Below are positions 43,364-51,602 of a stretch of DNA of 52,960 bases, in pieces. The translations under genes and the position numbers were made by a program. Each line of letters begins with the position of its first letter. The first letter of the stretch is position 1. Under the pieces are notes generated by a model. It did not search any database. It was given only the letters and a program-made list of their open reading frames with translations, and was not told where the DNA came from. The DNA is from Eggerthellaceae bacterium (GTDB taxonomy: Bacteria; Actinomycetota; Coriobacteriia; Coriobacteriales; Eggerthellaceae), in assembly GCA_015062605.1 (NCBI GenBank), contig SUUI01000013.1:1-52960 (forward strand), given 5' to 3'.

Positions 43364-43820
43364 TGCTCGAAACGGAGCATGTGGGTTCCAGCCTGTCTGG
43401 GCCAAGCTCCTCGGCTGTTTTTCCACCTACAACCCTATCGAAAAGCATCGTCATTTGTGCTCAAGCCTCGCCCAAAGCTTTTGATATAACAGTGAGCGTA
43501 GACTTTTTTCAGGGCCTTATCTGGCCATACACAAAAAAGCGGCTTTGACCTGGACTTTTGGCACGCCAAAAGAACGTTTTTGGGTCAAAAAGTGCCCATC
43601 TTCTATCCGGCTCAGCCCCCCCTCAGAGTTTGAGCGAAACAGATAGAGCCGATTCTGCTCTTTCACGGGAATAGCCCCCATTCACATCTCGAGAGAATCG
43701 GAAGGTCCCTAACCCGCAGGCCCTTCTTGCGTCTACGCGTCATATCCGTATCAGGCGATTTACGCAGCTTTGGGGTTTTCGCAGCACGGCAGAACCACGC
43801 ATGCGCTACACTTCTAACCC
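43364..43820. other. non-coding stretch with dispersed-repeat copy A
   Basis: 457 bases without a credible gene. It contains a repeat copy at 43546-43608 and a preceding shared CAGTGAGCGTAG at 43490. A TACACT -10-like element at 43807-43812 is eight bases before the next ATG. Confidence 0.5.
43546..43608. repeat. dispersed repeat, copy A
   Basis: 63 bases starting TGACCTGGACTTTTGGCACG and ending CATCTTCTATCC, with four mismatches to copy B at 46740-46802. It contains the perfect palindrome TTTTGGC-AC-GCCAAAA, enclosed by TTTGACC/GGGTCAAA arms, so it can fold as a nested hairpin. Confidence 0.85.
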
Positions 43821-44486
43821 ATGGAAACCAAGACTGCTTTCATATTCGACTGCGACGGCGTGCTTCTCGATTCGATCGGCGCGTGGCATGCCCTCGACCA
43901 ACGCCTGGCCGACGAGGCGGGTATCACAATGGATGCGAAGGACCGTGAAGCCCTGAACGCCTCCACGCTCCTCGAGGCAGCAGCGTACTTCCACAACCAC
44001 TACGGAGTGGGCGAATCCGTCGAAGAGGTCGGGGCACGCTTCACGCGATTCTTGCTGGAATACTACGAGAACGACGCCTCGGAGACGCTCGGCGCGCTCG
44101 CGTTCGTGACGATGCTCGCAGAAACCGGTTCGCCTCTCTGCGTGCTTTCGAGCTCTCCGCAATCGTTCCTCGTTCCCGGCCTTGCGCGTGCAGGATTCTC
44201 AGGATTGATCGGCACCGTGCTCTCCGCCGAGGATCTGCCCTTCAAGAAGCGCGACTCGAGGCTGTATCCGCACGTGTGCGGCATGCTCGGAACGATACCG
44301 CAGAACACCTGGTTCTTCGATGACAGCTGGTACGCGCTCGAGGCGGCAAGCAAGGCGGGTATGCGCAACGTCGGAGTGCACTCTTTCGATGCATGCGGCA
44401 CGCACGAGCAGCTCGGACGATTCTCCGAGCTCGTGTGCGACTCATTTGCGGAGCTTCCGCAAGATCCCGCGTTCTGGGGTTGCTAG
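43821..44486 (+). CDS. HAD-superfamily hydrolase, beta-phosphoglucomutase-like
   Basis: A 221-residue phosphatase/phosphomutase-like protein: FDCDGVLLDS (motif I), LSSSPQSFLVPG (motif II), PFKKRDSRLYP (motif III Lys) and WFFDDSWYALEAASKAG (motif IV). The all-helical cap lies at about 18-90. There is no ribosome site, and a -10-like TACACT ends eight bases before the ATG, so translation may be leaderless. Substrate unknown. Confidence 0.82.
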   Translation: METKTAFIFDCDGVLLDSIGAWHALDQRLADEAGITMDAKDREALNASTLLEAAAYFHNHYGVGESVEEVGARFTRFLLEYYENDASETLGALAFVTMLAETGSPLCVLSSSPQSFLVPGLARAGFSGLIGTVLSAEDLPFKKRDSRLYPHVCGMLGTIPQNTWFFDDSWYALEAASKAGMRNVGVHSFDACGTHEQLGRFSELVCDSFAELPQDPAFWGC

Positions 44487-44489
44487 CCC

Positions 44490-44785
44490 GTCCGAAGCGC
44501 AAGCCCTGCATTGAATCACCTCCGTCAACCGCAGAGGAAATCGAGGTCATCGTAGAGGCTGCAGGGCCCCACAATGGGATCGAGGCGACGGCAGCCGTCC
44601 GAGAGTTCGCCCTCGCCCAGACAGAGGATTTCACGAAGCGGCAGGCCATGGAAGCCTGCAATATCAAGAGCATAAAAAGGATGGCCACTGCCTTAAGAGA
44701 GCTCCAAAACGAGGGCGCCATCAAAAAGATCGGCACGAGCAAGGATGCAAGGTACAGGCTTTGCCAAAGCCGCTGCAAAGCTTGA
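44490..44785 (+). pseudogene. fragment of a protein ending in a winged-helix domain
   Basis: The frame encodes a winged-helix-like end: AGPHNGIEATAAVREFALAQ, FTKRQAMEACNIKSIKR (HTH-like) and ALRELQNEGAIKKIGTSKDARYRL. There is no start codon with a ribosome site, and the frame runs into the end of the HAD gene, so it looks like the C-terminal remnant of a longer regulator or Fic/AAA-type protein whose front is lost. Confidence 0.45.
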
Positions 44786-46647: not shown

Positions 46648-46739
46648 CACGCTCAAGGCCACTAAGAAACTGGTAGTTTCACAGTGAGCGTAGGCCCATT
46701 TTTTCGGGCCCTGTTTAACCGCAAGCGGATAAGCACTCC

Positions 46740-46802
46740 TGACCTGGACTTTTGGCACGCCAAAAGAGCGTTTCTGGGTCCAAAAGGGCCCATCTTCTAT
46801 CC
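46740..46802. repeat. dispersed repeat, copy B
   Basis: Same 63-base unit as at 43546-43608, in the same orientation, with the TTTTGGC-AC-GCCAAAA palindrome intact. A further shared CAGTGAGCGTAG lies at 46682. It ends 55 bases before the tRNA 3' half. Confidence 0.85.
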
Positions 46803-46856
46803 TGCTCTGCTCTGCTCTGTCACTACATGGAAAACTGAGCGGCATCTGCATGTCAG

Positions 46857-46898
46857 TCGCGGGGGCAGGATTTGAACCTACGACCTCCGGGTTATGAG
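46857..46898 (-). tRNA. 3' half of an interrupted initiator tRNA-fMet(CAT)
   Basis: Read leftward: anticodon loop CTCATAA (46898-46892), then CCCGG, AGGTC, T-arm GTAGG-TTCAAAT-CCTGC and acceptor strand CCCCGCG with discriminator A. Just upstream of the loop the sequence is AAGCGC, not the expected CGGG, so the tRNA breaks exactly at the 5' edge of the anticodon loop. CCA is not encoded. Joined to the 39 bases at 51257-51295 it gives a complete, well-paired initiator tRNA. Confidence 0.85.
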
Positions 46899-47014
46899 GC
46901 GCTTAGATTGAGGGAAATCCGAATCCTTGTAAAGCCTTATCGGGCGTTTGACCTGCGATTATAGTGAACTCTAGGGAACTCAAGGTAATTGTTGATTATT
47001 GGGACTTCCGCTCT

Positions 47015-47047
47015 CGTGTCCCAGTCGTGTCCCAATTCCATGTCCCA
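47015..47047 (+). repeat. direct repeats of GTGTCCCA near the left element end
   Basis: CGTGTCCCA at 47015-47023, CGTGTCCCA at 47026-47034 and ATGTCCCA at 47040-47047; a shorter GTCCCA at 47056 lies within the end of the reverse transcriptase gene. Short direct repeats near an att core are typical arm-binding sites of tyrosine integrases. Confidence 0.6.
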
Positions 47048-47049
47048 AA

Positions 47050-48906
47050 CTACTCGTCCCATATCCCGAGAGGGTCGTTTTCGATGCAGTCATTTAAAAG
47101 CTTTTGCAACGCGAACGTTGACTCCTTTACGACGTCAAAAGGAGCCGATCCATCAAGCAACGTTGACTCTGCATGAACCAAGGGGTTTTGTCGGCGAATT
47201 CTCTCATTCGATTCAACAATCTGCTCAGCGCCTTCAATAGAGCTAAAGAAACTCGAGCAGTCTTTCCCATACAGCCACTTCCCTCGGCGAACCTTCTTTC
47301 CCTGCTTTTTCCTTAAGGCCCTTGAAGCAAGCGTTGCCACTCTATCGAAATATGATCGGTAATACGTTGCTGCTTCAAAATGATTGCCGATTGAGCTGAG
47401 CTTCAAGTACATCAAGTACTGAAAACGTGAGGGCCGGTCTCCTTCTAAAAGCCCAAGCAATCTCGACGTCGCATTGTCTTCAAGGGTATCGAGAAAACGC
47501 CCACAGCAATAGTCCGCTACATAGCTGCCCAAATCAGGTTGTTCGCTGTTCAATGTTGAAAGCAAATCAGGGTGACGCATCCCCCGATATCGAAGGTAGG
47601 TCGTGGCAAGCATGGTTTCATAAGCGGTCCATTGCTTGCTTCTCGAGGTGGTAAAAAGCTTATTCAGCACTCCCTTATTCAAGTATTCATCATGAGTGTT
47701 TAAGATTGCCTTCATTGTGCCTTCGCAGTCGTATAGCAACACCTCGGCACCTGAATCGAGAATCTGGGTCAATTCCGCTATCACGGTTCCCTCTTTGAAC
47801 AAATCTGACCGGTGGTAGTAGCAATCCCGATATACCTCTCTTGCATCCAGACAAGTATCAATATCCCCAAAGAACTCAAGCAATAGCTCTTGATACATTG
47901 GGGCAGAAAAGTTCCCACCGAGCTGTTTTTTGGCAATCGCTTCATAGAACCCTGCAATTCTGCATGGTTCAATCGAAAAGGCACGTGGGGTCTGCTCCTC
48001 TTCCTCAAACGATGCCCCGGCCAACGAGTTCGGAAGTTCCTCTTTACTCACAAGGTGAGTCTTCTCGTAATTCAGAGACAAACCAAAAGGCTCTAGCGCT
48101 CTCGCATATGTCTTGATAATCCATTTCGCAATTCTTTTATCGGCCCGTGTTTCGTCAATATTGAAGAAGATATGCAGATCATCGACGTATCTCACGAAAC
48201 GGAATTCGGTAACGAATTTATTCTTCAACAATGCATTTGCGAAATCCCGATCAACTTGATCGAGGAGAATCTGCGTAGCAAGAAAAGATGATGCGACGCT
48301 GTTTTGAATAATCGGAAACTGGCCGCGACCGCAATAGGACAAGAGTCCAGACAACATCGCCAGATCAACCGATCCTATCGTTCCGCCAGTTGCTTTATCA
48401 ACCAAATCAATTAGTTGTTCGATATTAATGTTACTGAAGAAGTTGCTAATATCCGTCTTTAGGCAGTATGTGTACCTCTCAGAACACTTTTTCGCTTCGA
48501 TACAGTACTCGTCATACCCGCCTTTATAGTGTGCTGAACCGTTTTCGTATGAGCCAGAGTAATGAGCGCTGCGATAGTCTTGCAAATCGAGAGACTTCCT
48601 TCGGAAAACCGCAAGTCCACATGCTTGGATGTAAAGAAACATTATTGGATGCAGTAGGTAAAACACCCGTAAATCAGCGTTAGCTTTTTGCATAAAGCAT
48701 TTCGCCGTCCGAGAACATTCAGGCATCAGAATAAATGCAGCATCGCTTATGTATCGAGCATAGAATAACGGGCTCTCAATATAATCCCAGTCTGCTTTGG
48801 AAAGTTTTGCGAACGGATACCACTGAAGATACGAGCAATGGCGCTTTTTCTGTCTACGATACATTTCGCAGACATTTTTCCAATCGATGTATTGGATGCA
48901 AAACAA
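47050..48906 (-). CDS. AbiA-like defence reverse transcriptase with C-terminal HEPN motif
   Basis: A 618-residue protein. The N-terminus has YARYISDAAFILMPE near 49-63. The reverse transcriptase part shows motif A KTDISNFF (Asp152), motif B as PIIQNSVASSFLA, the catalytic RYVDDLHIFF (Asp242-243) and LNYEKT at 278. A helical region follows, and near the end RRQNPLVH (Arg572-x5-His578) fits the RNase HEPN motif. This RT-HEPN layout and length fit AbiA, a single-protein abortive-infection system. Intron maturase and retron features are missing. TTG at 48906 is the first possible start after an in-frame stop and has AAGG eight bases upstream. It lies 86 bases after rloB, so it may be the third gene of that operon. 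Confidence 0.8.
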   Translation of the reverse strand: MFCIQYIDWKNVCEMYRRQKKRHCSYLQWYPFAKLSKADWDYIESPLFYARYISDAAFILMPECSRTAKCFMQKANADLRVFYLLHPIMFLYIQACGLAVFRRKSLDLQDYRSAHYSGSYENGSAHYKGGYDEYCIEAKKCSERYTYCLKTDISNFFSNINIEQLIDLVDKATGGTIGSVDLAMLSGLLSYCGRGQFPIIQNSVASSFLATQILLDQVDRDFANALLKNKFVTEFRFVRYVDDLHIFFNIDETRADKRIAKWIIKTYARALEPFGLSLNYEKTHLVSKEELPNSLAGASFEEEEQTPRAFSIEPCRIAGFYEAIAKKQLGGNFSAPMYQELLLEFFGDIDTCLDAREVYRDCYYHRSDLFKEGTVIAELTQILDSGAEVLLYDCEGTMKAILNTHDEYLNKGVLNKLFTTSRSKQWTAYETMLATTYLRYRGMRHPDLLSTLNSEQPDLGSYVADYCCGRFLDTLEDNATSRLLGLLEGDRPSRFQYLMYLKLSSIGNHFEAATYYRSYFDRVATLASRALRKKQGKKVRRGKWLYGKDCSSFFSSIEGAEQIVESNERIRRQNPLVHAESTLLDGSAPFDVVKESTFALQKLLNDCIENDPLGIWDE

Positions 48907-48992
48907 AGCAGTAACCTTGCCACTTTCTATTCAAGACTTCACCGTGCTAGGAACGATGTGTTCAGCACTGTTGCACGCAAACAAGTTTTTCT

Positions 48993-49604
48993 TCACTCCC
49001 TGTTTATGCCTGGGAGTAATCGTTTAACCAGCTTGTAGACATCGCTCATCCCAGCATCGGGAATGTCGCGATTGCAACTCGTACGCTTTGCATTCGCGTT
49101 CTCGACCGCCCGCTCAATTTCCTCGATGCTGAATTGTGCGGGCTTCAGTCGTTTGTCGTAGTCCGGCATGTAGTGCTTCAGCTTGGAATCAACCTGTTGG
49201 GCAGTTGTGCATCCATTGCCCTTCTCGAAATGCATGACGAGGAACAGCTCAAACTTAGGATTGCTGATGGCAAGGTGATGCCGACGGTCTTTTCTCTCCC
49301 ATTCCAAAAGGGCGGCAAACTCGTCGGCATCCCATTCGTCCACATCAATCATCAACCACGCCTCATCGCCCTTACGGAAGTCGTTCTCGCGCAGCGCCTT
49401 CTCGAAACGCTTGAGAACCGCCGCTGGGTTCCGCCGTGATGGATGGGTGTTCTTCGGGAACTTGATGGACACGCCCACATCGCGAAACGCCTCCATGGAC
49501 AGATAATCCTGTTCCGTCTTGCCTTCGGCGGAAACCCAGCAGACGTCTCGGTACTTTCGCGTCGAAACATTGCGCCTGAGCGTGTCGTTCTTCCTCTTAG
49601 CCAT
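48993..49604 (-). CDS. rloB: RloB-family protein (Toprim-like nuclease, AbiLii-like)
   Basis: A 203-residue protein with SAEGKTEQDYL near 25-35 (catalytic-type Glu), LMIDVDEWD at 84-92 (DxD) and SNPKFELFLVMHFEKG at 114-129, the three marks of RloB, which belongs near Toprim/OLD nucleases. ATG at 49604 lies inside the end of rloA (8-base overlap), so the two are coupled. RloB always goes with an AAA15-type ATPase; the pair matches the AbiL abortive-infection system and is related in plan to PARIS and OLD-type systems. Confidence 0.85.
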   Translation of the reverse strand: MAKRKNDTLRRNVSTRKYRDVCWVSAEGKTEQDYLSMEAFRDVGVSIKFPKNTHPSRRNPAAVLKRFEKALRENDFRKGDEAWLMIDVDEWDADEFAALLEWERKDRRHHLAISNPKFELFLVMHFEKGNGCTTAQQVDSKLKHYMPDYDKRLKPAQFSIEEIERAVENANAKRTSCNRDIPDAGMSDVYKLVKRLLPGINRE

Positions 49605-50943
49605 AGGCGATTGCCTCTCCCAGCATCGGAATGCCACCGAAACGGCCATCCAGATAGCTTCTGATGAGGTCCTTGTCGAACCTTATGCCCTCGAATTCGC
49701 TAAGTCCGACCAGCTCTGAACAGCCATGTACATCTCGCTGAGAGATGTACATCTCGTCGCGGCGCATGAGCGACTGGTCCATGAGCAAAAGGTCGTGGGT
49801 GGTGAAAAGCATCTGCTTGCGGGTGTCTGGCCCGCAGGTTTCCAGGAAGTCCTCCAGCAGTTTTCTCGTGAGCATGGTGTGCAAGCAGCGATCAAGTTCA
49901 TCGACGACGTACACCTTCGATCCAACCTGGCCACCTAAACCCGACAAATCGAAGAGCATCGGAAGGAGAACCATGAGGCGCTGCGTGCCAGACGACTCCA
50001 TGCTCAAGCTGAATCTGTGCTCGGCACCATCAGGGCCAATATGCACGGTGCTCAATCGCTGAATGTCGGGCTTCCCATTGACAGATCGCGCAGTGAACAT
50101 CTCGAAGCCATAGTCTCCGTTTATTTGATTGATGACTACTGTCACAGCTTCGTTTTGTCCGAGCTCGTTGATATGGCGGCGCAGTTCCGCATCCGGTGGC
50201 AGTGAGTCCATTCCGACCTGCTGGCCTTCCAACCTCGAGATGCCTGTGTCCAGGCGCGCAAGCGTTTCTCCGGCAAACTCCAGGAATCCCTCCCTCTTTT
50301 CCAGGGCGGTTGCAAAGGCCCAAGCGTCCGAGCCAACCCCAACAAGCTCTAGGACGTTTGCAAACCAAAGGAATGGATCTGCGAGCTCGGTAACGTTATC
50401 CGCCATAGCGCGCCCGAGGAACAACTGGTTACCGCGCGTGCTTTTTGCAACGTAGTTTACATGGGCCAAATCCGCAAAGAACGTCTCGTTGAAGCTGAAG
50501 ACCGGCTTCTTTTCCATGTCGCGCTCGTAGACGTCGATTGACCCTTTTTCCTTGACGATTTCCAGTGATTCGTAGGAAACCCCATCGACGGTCGCTTCGA
50601 CGACCAGCCGATACACATTTTTTCCTGCCAGGAAGGTGATGTCGAAGGTCGTCGGACGGAGAGTTGCTCCATCCTCGAGCATGAAGGGCTCAATTGGCAG
50701 GATGCCGTTCACGCCGGGATCCTGAGTCACCATTACCTTCAACGCCGCTATCGCCTTGAAAAGGCCGGTCTTTCCCGAAGCGTTCCCTCCGTAGACGGCA
50801 ACAACGGGCAAGGCCTTCTTACTGCGAAAGCCCGGTATTTTGGCGAGCGTTTCCATGTGCTGGCGCTCCAGGGACCCCGTCGTACTGAAAGCCGCGCCGT
50901 CCCTGTACGACATCCAATTCTCAACCTCGAAATTCAACAGCAT
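49597..50943 (-). CDS. rloA: RloA-type AAA15 ATPase (AbiLi-like)
   Basis: A 448-residue SMC/ABC-like ATPase: LNFEVENWMSYRD at the start, Walker A GGNASGKT at 52-59, ABC-signature-like SLSMESSGTQRLMVLLP, Walker B VYVVDELD near 344-351 and FTTHDLLLMD (switch His) near 380. Such ATPases sense phage or phage-encoded inhibitors and control an attached nuclease. ATG at 50943 has AAGGGAG. It is the first gene of the operon and has a palindrome over its promoter. Confidence 0.86.
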   Translation of the reverse strand: MLLNFEVENWMSYRDGAAFSTTGSLERQHMETLAKIPGFRSKKALPVVAVYGGNASGKTGLFKAIAALKVMVTQDPGVNGILPIEPFMLEDGATLRPTTFDITFLAGKNVYRLVVEATVDGVSYESLEIVKEKGSIDVYERDMEKKPVFSFNETFFADLAHVNYVAKSTRGNQLFLGRAMADNVTELADPFLWFANVLELVGVGSDAWAFATALEKREGFLEFAGETLARLDTGISRLEGQQVGMDSLPPDAELRRHINELGQNEAVTVVINQINGDYGFEMFTARSVNGKPDIQRLSTVHIGPDGAEHRFSLSMESSGTQRLMVLLPMLFDLSGLGGQVGSKVYVVDELDRCLHTMLTRKLLEDFLETCGPDTRKQMLFTTHDLLLMDQSLMRRDEMYISQRDVHGCSELVGLSEFEGIRFDKDLIRSYLDGRFGGIPMLGEAIAYG

Positions 50944-50958
50944 TGCTCTCCCTTTCAT

Positions 50959-51001
50959 ATTGCATCCAATGTGATATTATCACATTCATTGCAATTGTCA
51001 A
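50959..51001 (-). promoter_or_regulatory. rloA-rloB promoter covered by a 37-base palindrome
   Basis: Minus strand TTGACA (51001-50996), 16 bases, TAATAT (50979-50974). The inner palindrome AATGTGATA-T-TATCACATT at 50968-50986 is perfect, and outer arms ATTGCA (50959-50964) and TGCAAT (50990-50995) share its centre at 50977. The site would block polymerase if bound. No DNA-binding regulator is encoded in the element. Confidence 0.8.
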
Positions 51002-51172
51002 TCGCAATAACAGACTCGGACTATGAGATGCCTGTAACATTTATGCAGCAGCGAAGTTTCAAATTTCACACTTCATTGCATAGTTATGAAACGTTCTACT
51101 AAGTTTTACGACAGCGAATTTGTAAATCAGCAAATCCGCTGCACAAGATAATCCTGGTCGGAATTGTGTTTT

Positions 51173-51222
51173 ACATCGGTTCCTGCAGGCCAAACGAGCG
51201 TTTTGTCTGCAGGAACCGATGT
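51173..51222. repeat. 50-base inverted repeat near the right element end
   Basis: Two perfect 16-base arms, ACATCGGTTCCTGCAG and CTGCAGGAACCGATGT, around 18 bases that themselves hold AAACG/CGTTT. No T run follows on either strand, so it is not an ordinary terminator. It lies 35 bases from the tRNA junction. The rest of 50996-51256 holds no gene. Confidence 0.85.
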
Positions 51223-51256
51223 CGAATTGACTAAGTGTGAACCGAAACGTTTTGGT

Positions 51257-51295
51257 TTATGAGCCCGAGGAGCCACCAGACTGCTCTACCCCGCA
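51257..51295 (-). tRNA. 5' half of the interrupted initiator tRNA-fMet(CAT)
   Basis: Read leftward: TGCGGGG, TA, D-arm GAGC...GCTC, C, TCGGG and the loop CTCATAA, after which the sequence becomes ACCAAAACG. Initiator marks are A11-T24 in the D stem, three G in the anticodon stem (pairing with CCC of the 3' half), CAT anticodon and no Watson-Crick 1-72 pair (T1 and G72). The copy here cannot give a functional tRNA unless the element is excised. Confidence 0.85.
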
Positions 51296-51480
51296 ATGTG
51301 AGAAATTCTGTATTCGGTTCTCAAAGCTGTCACGTGTGTTATGAGAAGAAGGATACTAAGATACATGCCTTGTCAAAGACCATTGAAATGGCAGCTGGCC
51401 CTCTCCGATCCTGTGGATTTTCCATGGACAATAGAAATATTAGCCCCTTTTTGGCCCCTTCCCTCATTTTTCGGACGAAA

Positions 51481-51526: not shown

Positions 51527-51602
51527 TGGTGGAGATGAGGGGATTCGAACCCCCGACCCCTACGTTGCGAACGTAATGCTCTCCCAGCTGAGCTACATCC
51601 CC
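51527..51602 (-). tRNA. tRNA-Ala(CGC)
   Basis: A 76-base cloverleaf with encoded CCA: acceptor GGGGATG/CATCTCC, including the G3-T70 wobble that identifies alanine tRNAs, D-arm GCTC...GAGC, anticodon arm TTACG-TTCGCAA-CGTAG with anticodon CGC, and T-arm GGGGG-TTCGAAT-CCCCT. Confidence 0.95.

Follow-up and report, generated by a model that had tools for sequence, protein, structure and literature searches.

The window analysed here, the whole 52,960-nucleotide stretch of an Eggerthellaceae contig, carries an initiator tRNA (tRNA-fMet) gene that is interrupted in its anticodon loop by a cassette of predicted defence genes. The features of this region are listed below, with the basis of each in parentheses.

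44393 to 44785, plus strand: open reading frame with a fragment of the island's integrase (integrase search)
46857 to 46898, minus strand: tRNA-fMet 3' half, from anticodon loop to discriminator base, without an encoded CCA (ARAGORN on the rejoined sequence)
46892 to 46898, minus strand: left 7-bp core CTCATAA, the anticodon loop (repeat comparison)
46899 to 47049, minus strand: left cassette end, with the half-site TCTAAGCGC abutting the core, about 80% conserved in genome G361 (comparison with G361)
47017 to 47047, plus strand: three TGTCCCA repeats resembling arm-type integrase sites, the only exact copies in the window (motif search)
47050 to 48906, minus strand: AbiA, reverse transcriptase plus HEPN, 618 aa (profile and structure match)
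48993 to 49649, minus strand: AbiLii, RloB family (profile match)
49597 to 50958, minus strand: AbiLi, AAA ATPase (profile match)
50974 to 51001, minus strand: promoter-like TTGACA-16-TAATAT 5' of abiLi (consensus match only)
51173 to 51222, no strand: 24-bp near-perfect inverted repeat with a 2-nt loop, inside the right cassette end (repeat and folding analysis)
51257 to 51263, minus strand: right 7-bp core CTCATAA (repeat comparison)
51257 to 51295, minus strand: tRNA-fMet 5' half, with three substitutions in 39 nt relative to the sister genome (ARAGORN and comparison with G002)
51296 to 51345, minus strand: second CTCATAA core (51339-51345) and a spacer characteristic of elements with a whole tRNA-fMet of their own (comparison with relatives)
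51527 to 51602, minus strand: intact tRNA-Ala(CGC), the anchor of the island (ARAGORN)

An initial annotation of this DNA had proposed that the two separated pieces form a complete initiator tRNA with a G-C anticodon stem and a non-canonical 1-72 end. When 51257-51295 and 46857-46898 (minus strand) were joined, with one 7-bp repeat and the insert omitted, ARAGORN accepted them as a 75-nt tRNA-Met(cat) with a GGG/CCC anticodon stem and a U1-G72 end, as proposed. In the uncut window, tRNA-Ala(CGC) was the sole ARAGORN call and no tRNA-fMet was reported. The insert is 4,365 bp long and is bordered by the direct repeat TTATGAG (46892-46898 and 51257-51263), where identity ends sharply at both 7-base borders. 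The duplicated bases are all seven nucleotides of the anticodon loop, CTCATAA, and nothing more, again as the annotation had it. Its further statement that neither junction contains a replacement 3' half also holds, since neither scored as a tRNA with Rfam covariance models at E<=1 and ARAGORN found no intact tRNA-fMet regenerated at either end. The 3' half in the window terminates in GCGA-C-TG, while the main copy of the gene ends in GCGACCA with an encoded CCA.

The insert contains the defence-type genes that had been noticed earlier, which can now be named in the order AbiLi, AbiLii and AbiA. All three are codirectional with the tRNA and point away from its 5' half. AbiA has a reverse transcriptase domain and a C-terminal HEPN domain, with a near full-length profile match, and matches the solved structure of Lactococcus AbiA (8oz7) across nearly its entire length (PMC11077055). 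The AbiLi ATPase adjoins AbiLii (RloB), the pairing that characterizes AbiL. The cargo is thus predicted to comprise the anti-phage systems AbiA and AbiL. It differs from the known examples in that both systems occur in one chromosomal cassette and in that its AbiA is only about 25% identical to the nearest, and only, plasmid-borne relative found. A scan of named public genomes returned no AbiA relatives, and a scan of viral contigs no AbiLi relatives. AbiA matches in genomes G033 and G007 were rejected as related cassettes, being distant and at contig edges with no tRNA-fMet close by. Expression of the abi genes is presumed not to depend on the supply of the tRNA. No integrase was detected between 46899 and 51256.

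The left end of the cassette recurs in other bacteria. A segment of 193 bp, comprising element end, core and 3' half, is 81% identical in G361 (public genome RUG12446), which belongs to another genus and has different cargo beside the shared end. The TGTCCCA repeats, which resemble arm-type integrase sites and lie some 120-150 bp away from the core, are kept in G361, two of them exactly and one with a mismatch. The motif TCTAAGCGC-CTCATAA-CCCGRAG, that is half-site, core and 3' half, also occurs in two copies 21.7 kb apart in a single Oscillospiraceae contig. Because independent copies are thus found in another genus and in Oscillospiraceae, chance is excluded for the left junction, and the comparison identifies it as a genuine shared recombination end. 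G361 further contains a 195-bp scrap of the 3' end of abiA (91% identical), which suggests that AbiA travels with this end. An open reading frame of 191 aa (L115:9231-9806) adjoins the shared end in G361; it appears HEPN-like by eye only and had no Pfam or PADLOC match. Two other sets of matches were set aside: the left half-site in viral contig L186 is a chance match within a coding region, and phage-collection matches to the 3' half are apparently ordinary tRNA-fMet genes in the two records examined.

At the right end, the sequence beyond the 5' half and core begins ACCAAAACGTTTCGG and was found nowhere else in 298 genomes of the class, 138 genomes of the family or viral contigs. The sole match among the class genomes and viral contigs, with three mismatches, lies inside a coding region and was dismissed as chance. 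No TGTCCCA-like repeats are present on this side of the cassette. The 38 bases past the right core agree with the tRNA-fMet 3' half at 17 of 38 positions (P about 0.005) and are at best a very weak tRNA mimic that does not fold as a tRNA. Decay of a former tRNA half was not taken as their full explanation; the other 3' half is undecayed. The region of the inverted repeat (51173-51222) is strongly folded (z about -5). Collinearity of the right flank with the sister genome G002 runs as far as the core and stops there. A second element, or one with a short core, may be the source of the right end.

Whether the loss of this tRNA matters to the cell depends on other copies. G001, of the same genus, has just one tRNA-fMet, which is intact and has a promoter and a terminator of its own. 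The genome of the window is a draft of 31 contigs, as most relatives compared are drafts too, and its orthologue of the G001 locus is represented by the ends of contigs C12 and C9, with the assembly gap inside the tRNA. The C12 end shows the tRNA 5' half followed by CTCATAACCC, a spacer and then ATAGTGCG. Since the identical spacer in G346 runs into a complete tRNA-fMet, the C12/C9 gap very probably holds an intact tRNA-fMet. A second tRNA-fMet locus, which the initial annotation had proposed to look for, is thus present, and an intact gene is predicted from the contig ends there, while no complete tRNA-fMet is assembled anywhere in the 31 contigs.

The split copy, in turn, has the properties of an accessory gene. 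It lies 0.2 kb downstream of tRNA-Ala. In G002, also of the same genus, the orthologous site downstream of veg and tRNA-Ala holds a tRNA-fMet without an interruption. Outside the genus, veg and tRNA-fMet are widely separated or on separate contigs. As G002 has a displaced tRNA-Ala half next to an integrase, and the window a piece of an integrase, the region is best described as a decayed island anchored in tRNA-Ala(CGC), of which the tRNA-fMet would be an accessory part. The core and spacer at 51296-51345 are of the same kind as those found in G051, G361, G292 and G357 between a broken host 5' half and an element-borne tRNA-fMet. Relative to G002, the tRNA-fMet 5' half has diverged by 7.7% (an imprecise figure from 39 sites) and tRNA-Ala by 0%; the flanks have diverged by 6.1% in veg, 8.3% in rsmA and 14% in the intergenic region. 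Divergence at the level of the flanks looks like the behaviour of a dispensable copy. Against the main-locus sequence, the spare 5' half shows two differences within the compared part. In addition, the spare copy is separated from tRNA-Ala by a terminator-like hairpin and preceded by only a weak promoter match. The earlier claim that an initiator tRNA is inactivated thus stands in so far as this copy is dead with the element in place, but it is very probably not the working initiator tRNA of the cell. By type, the window's 3' half matches the main locus and not the orthologous G002 locus, and the history of the region therefore includes at least one further exchange. A 130-bp repeat (43489-43616 and 46681-46811, 79% identity) also occurs twice in contig C15 of G002; located outside the tRNA halves, it was rejected as marking the ends of the unit.

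The same anticodon loop is used by many elements in the family and order, where a common arrangement is an intact tRNA-fMet and, at a distance of 1.5 kb to more than 10 kb behind it, a displaced 3' half whose first bases lie in the anticodon loop. At the junctions inspected, the tRNA meets unrelated sequence at CTCATAA. An integrase lies beside the displaced half in G003, G017, G023, G035 and G052 and beside the intact tRNA in G043, and G017 has tandem arrays at the site. These loci mark the anticodon loop of tRNA-fMet as an integration hotspot in Eggerthellaceae, whose occupants normally keep the tRNA working. Defence cargo was found at the same core in G292 (AbiEi/AbiEii), G018 (a SoFic-like protein) and G032 (a LlaJI-type restriction-modification set), and no integrase was detected in these three occupants. 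The cassette of G292 (L177:1962-3530) is 1.6 kb long and lies between two tRNA-fMet 3' halves. Variants of the tRNA itself were also seen: the proximal tRNA at the G292 cassette has an 8-nt duplication in the variable region, and in a tRNA-fMet of G365 (L173, around 2274) some 20-30 extra bases are inserted into the variable-loop region. In G043, a 4.3-kb element in tRNA-fMet (L097:564-3782) carries an integrase and a repressor-like gene and matches a viral replication protein family weakly, below the cut-off.

A second arrangement was found in about eight genomes, in which a broken host tRNA-fMet 5' half is followed, after 31-52 nt, by a complete or second tRNA-fMet. The loci are L079:67-214, L085 (G047), L086 (G051), L087 (G028), L177 (G292), L179 (G346), L180 (G266) and L181 (G357); in G002 the corresponding original 3' half is found displaced, along with the host terminator. 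This order of core, spacer and complete tRNA looks like the product of elements that replace the host initiator tRNA, that is, of tRNA-dependent integration. No prior description of such integration at the initiator tRNA was met in a literature search that was not exhaustive.

Several known systems share part of this organization. Anticodon-loop islands are an established class of tRNA islands in the Islander database (PMC4383910) and, like the case described here, have the insertion in the anticodon loop, a core equal to the loop and a displaced 3' half at the far end; however, they restore the tRNA, which the cassette does not, and the cassette lacks a tyrosine integrase of its own. In tRNA-dependent lysogeny of actinobacteriophages (Guerrero-Bustamante and Hatfull, 2024; PMC10865867), attP and attB have only about 8-11 bp in common and the tRNA is provided by the phage itself; a phage named in the same paper, Daredevil, does not rebuild the tRNA and encodes none of its own. 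A very short core (7 bp here) and a host tRNA that is not rebuilt are common to both, so that by analogy failure to rebuild the tRNA has a precedent. Those phages nevertheless carry an integrase and a replacement tRNA, whereas the cassette has neither and its target is a spare copy; the core-spacer-complete tRNA-fMet elements of relatives fit tRNA-dependent lysogeny better, with the initiator tRNA as the target. Like CIMEs and other integrase-less att-flanked remnants, the cassette has cargo between candidate attachment sites and no integrase of its own (PMC5704250). In contrast to a CIME, it was found without a partner integrative element, and its mobility is putative; as candidate att-flanked cargo, it has a left end backed by relatives and a right end that is unique.

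The explanation that we regard as probable is that an integrase-less AbiA and AbiL cassette recombined into a redundant, element-borne tRNA-fMet within the decayed tRNA-Ala(CGC) island. An older mobile element with a whole tRNA-fMet behind its attachment core would have brought in the spare gene. The 4.4-kb cassette would then have entered the anticodon loop of this gene by recombination of the tyrosine-integrase type, with the crossover in CTCATAA; such recombination between a cassette end and the redundant tRNA-fMet is the most likely event at the core. The integrase may have acted from elsewhere or may have been lost by deletion, in which case the two ends possibly derive from two elements. 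Because the host keeps another tRNA-fMet locus, restoration of the tRNA would not be selected, and the two halves would by now be pseudogene pieces. Loss of the tRNA would be harmless through redundancy and not through a cassette-borne tRNA. On the best reading, the cassette is att-flanked cargo of defence genes in a redundant tRNA, either mobilised in trans or left as a remnant.

A special case of this explanation, with which its likelihood overlaps, starts from two elements, a tRNA-restoring one with the TCTAAGCGC end and one with a short core; a deletion removing the restored half, the integrase and the element tRNA would have left one end of each around the abi genes. The confinement of the arm-like repeats to the left, the resemblance of the left end to the distal end of larger islands and the tandem arrays of G017 are all consistent with it, as is the tRNA copy of G361, whose match ends in CTCATAACCC at a contig edge like a restored copy. 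No second occurrence of the right end, however, ties that end to another element, and we give this version a serious but somewhat less than even chance. The coupling favoured by the initial annotation, in which the element silences a working initiator tRNA and so links excision or tRNA dosage to anti-phage defence, found no support and is very unlikely. It could draw on the failure to rebuild the tRNA at either junction and on a genome assembly with no complete tRNA-fMet, but the C12/C9 locus predicts an intact gene, the split copy lacks CCA and has diverged as much as its flanks, and it sits behind a terminator-like hairpin with a weak promoter match. The unit, moreover, lacks an integrase, bears arm-like repeats on a single side and has a right end for which no relatives were found. 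Fusion of unrelated contig pieces in the anticodon loop during assembly is more improbable still; the genome is a draft whose other tRNA-fMet copies stop at contig breaks, yet an assembler would not be misled by as little as 7 bp, G361 has the left junction as well, and collinearity of the right flank with G002 extends to the core. A transposon with a 7-bp target-site duplication, or an intron spliced from the tRNA precursor, is scarcely credible: 7 bp is a plausible duplication size and one gene encodes a reverse transcriptase, but no terminal inverted repeat links both ends, no intron RNA family matches, the reverse transcriptase is AbiA and not an intron enzyme, and the same 7 bp borders many unrelated elements in relatives.

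A broader, tentative and rather doubtful scheme for the family may be considered, in which elements seize the initiator tRNA and the leftover spare copies serve as dispensable pads for short defence cassettes lacking an integrase, with exchange by integrases supplied in trans. Takeover elements would disrupt tRNA-fMet in its anticodon loop and bring a complete tRNA-fMet of their own, located a few tens of bases inward; the spare-copy pads would receive AbiA and AbiL here and AbiE, SoFic or restriction-modification genes at the same core elsewhere.

A split tRNA gene that looks essential can thus be explained by redundancy left behind by earlier mobile elements. In a family of gut bacteria, defence genes appear to land repeatedly in the anticodon loop of the initiator tRNA, and the related loci suggest that tRNA-dependent integration reaches the initiator tRNA, which is directly testable in cultured relatives.
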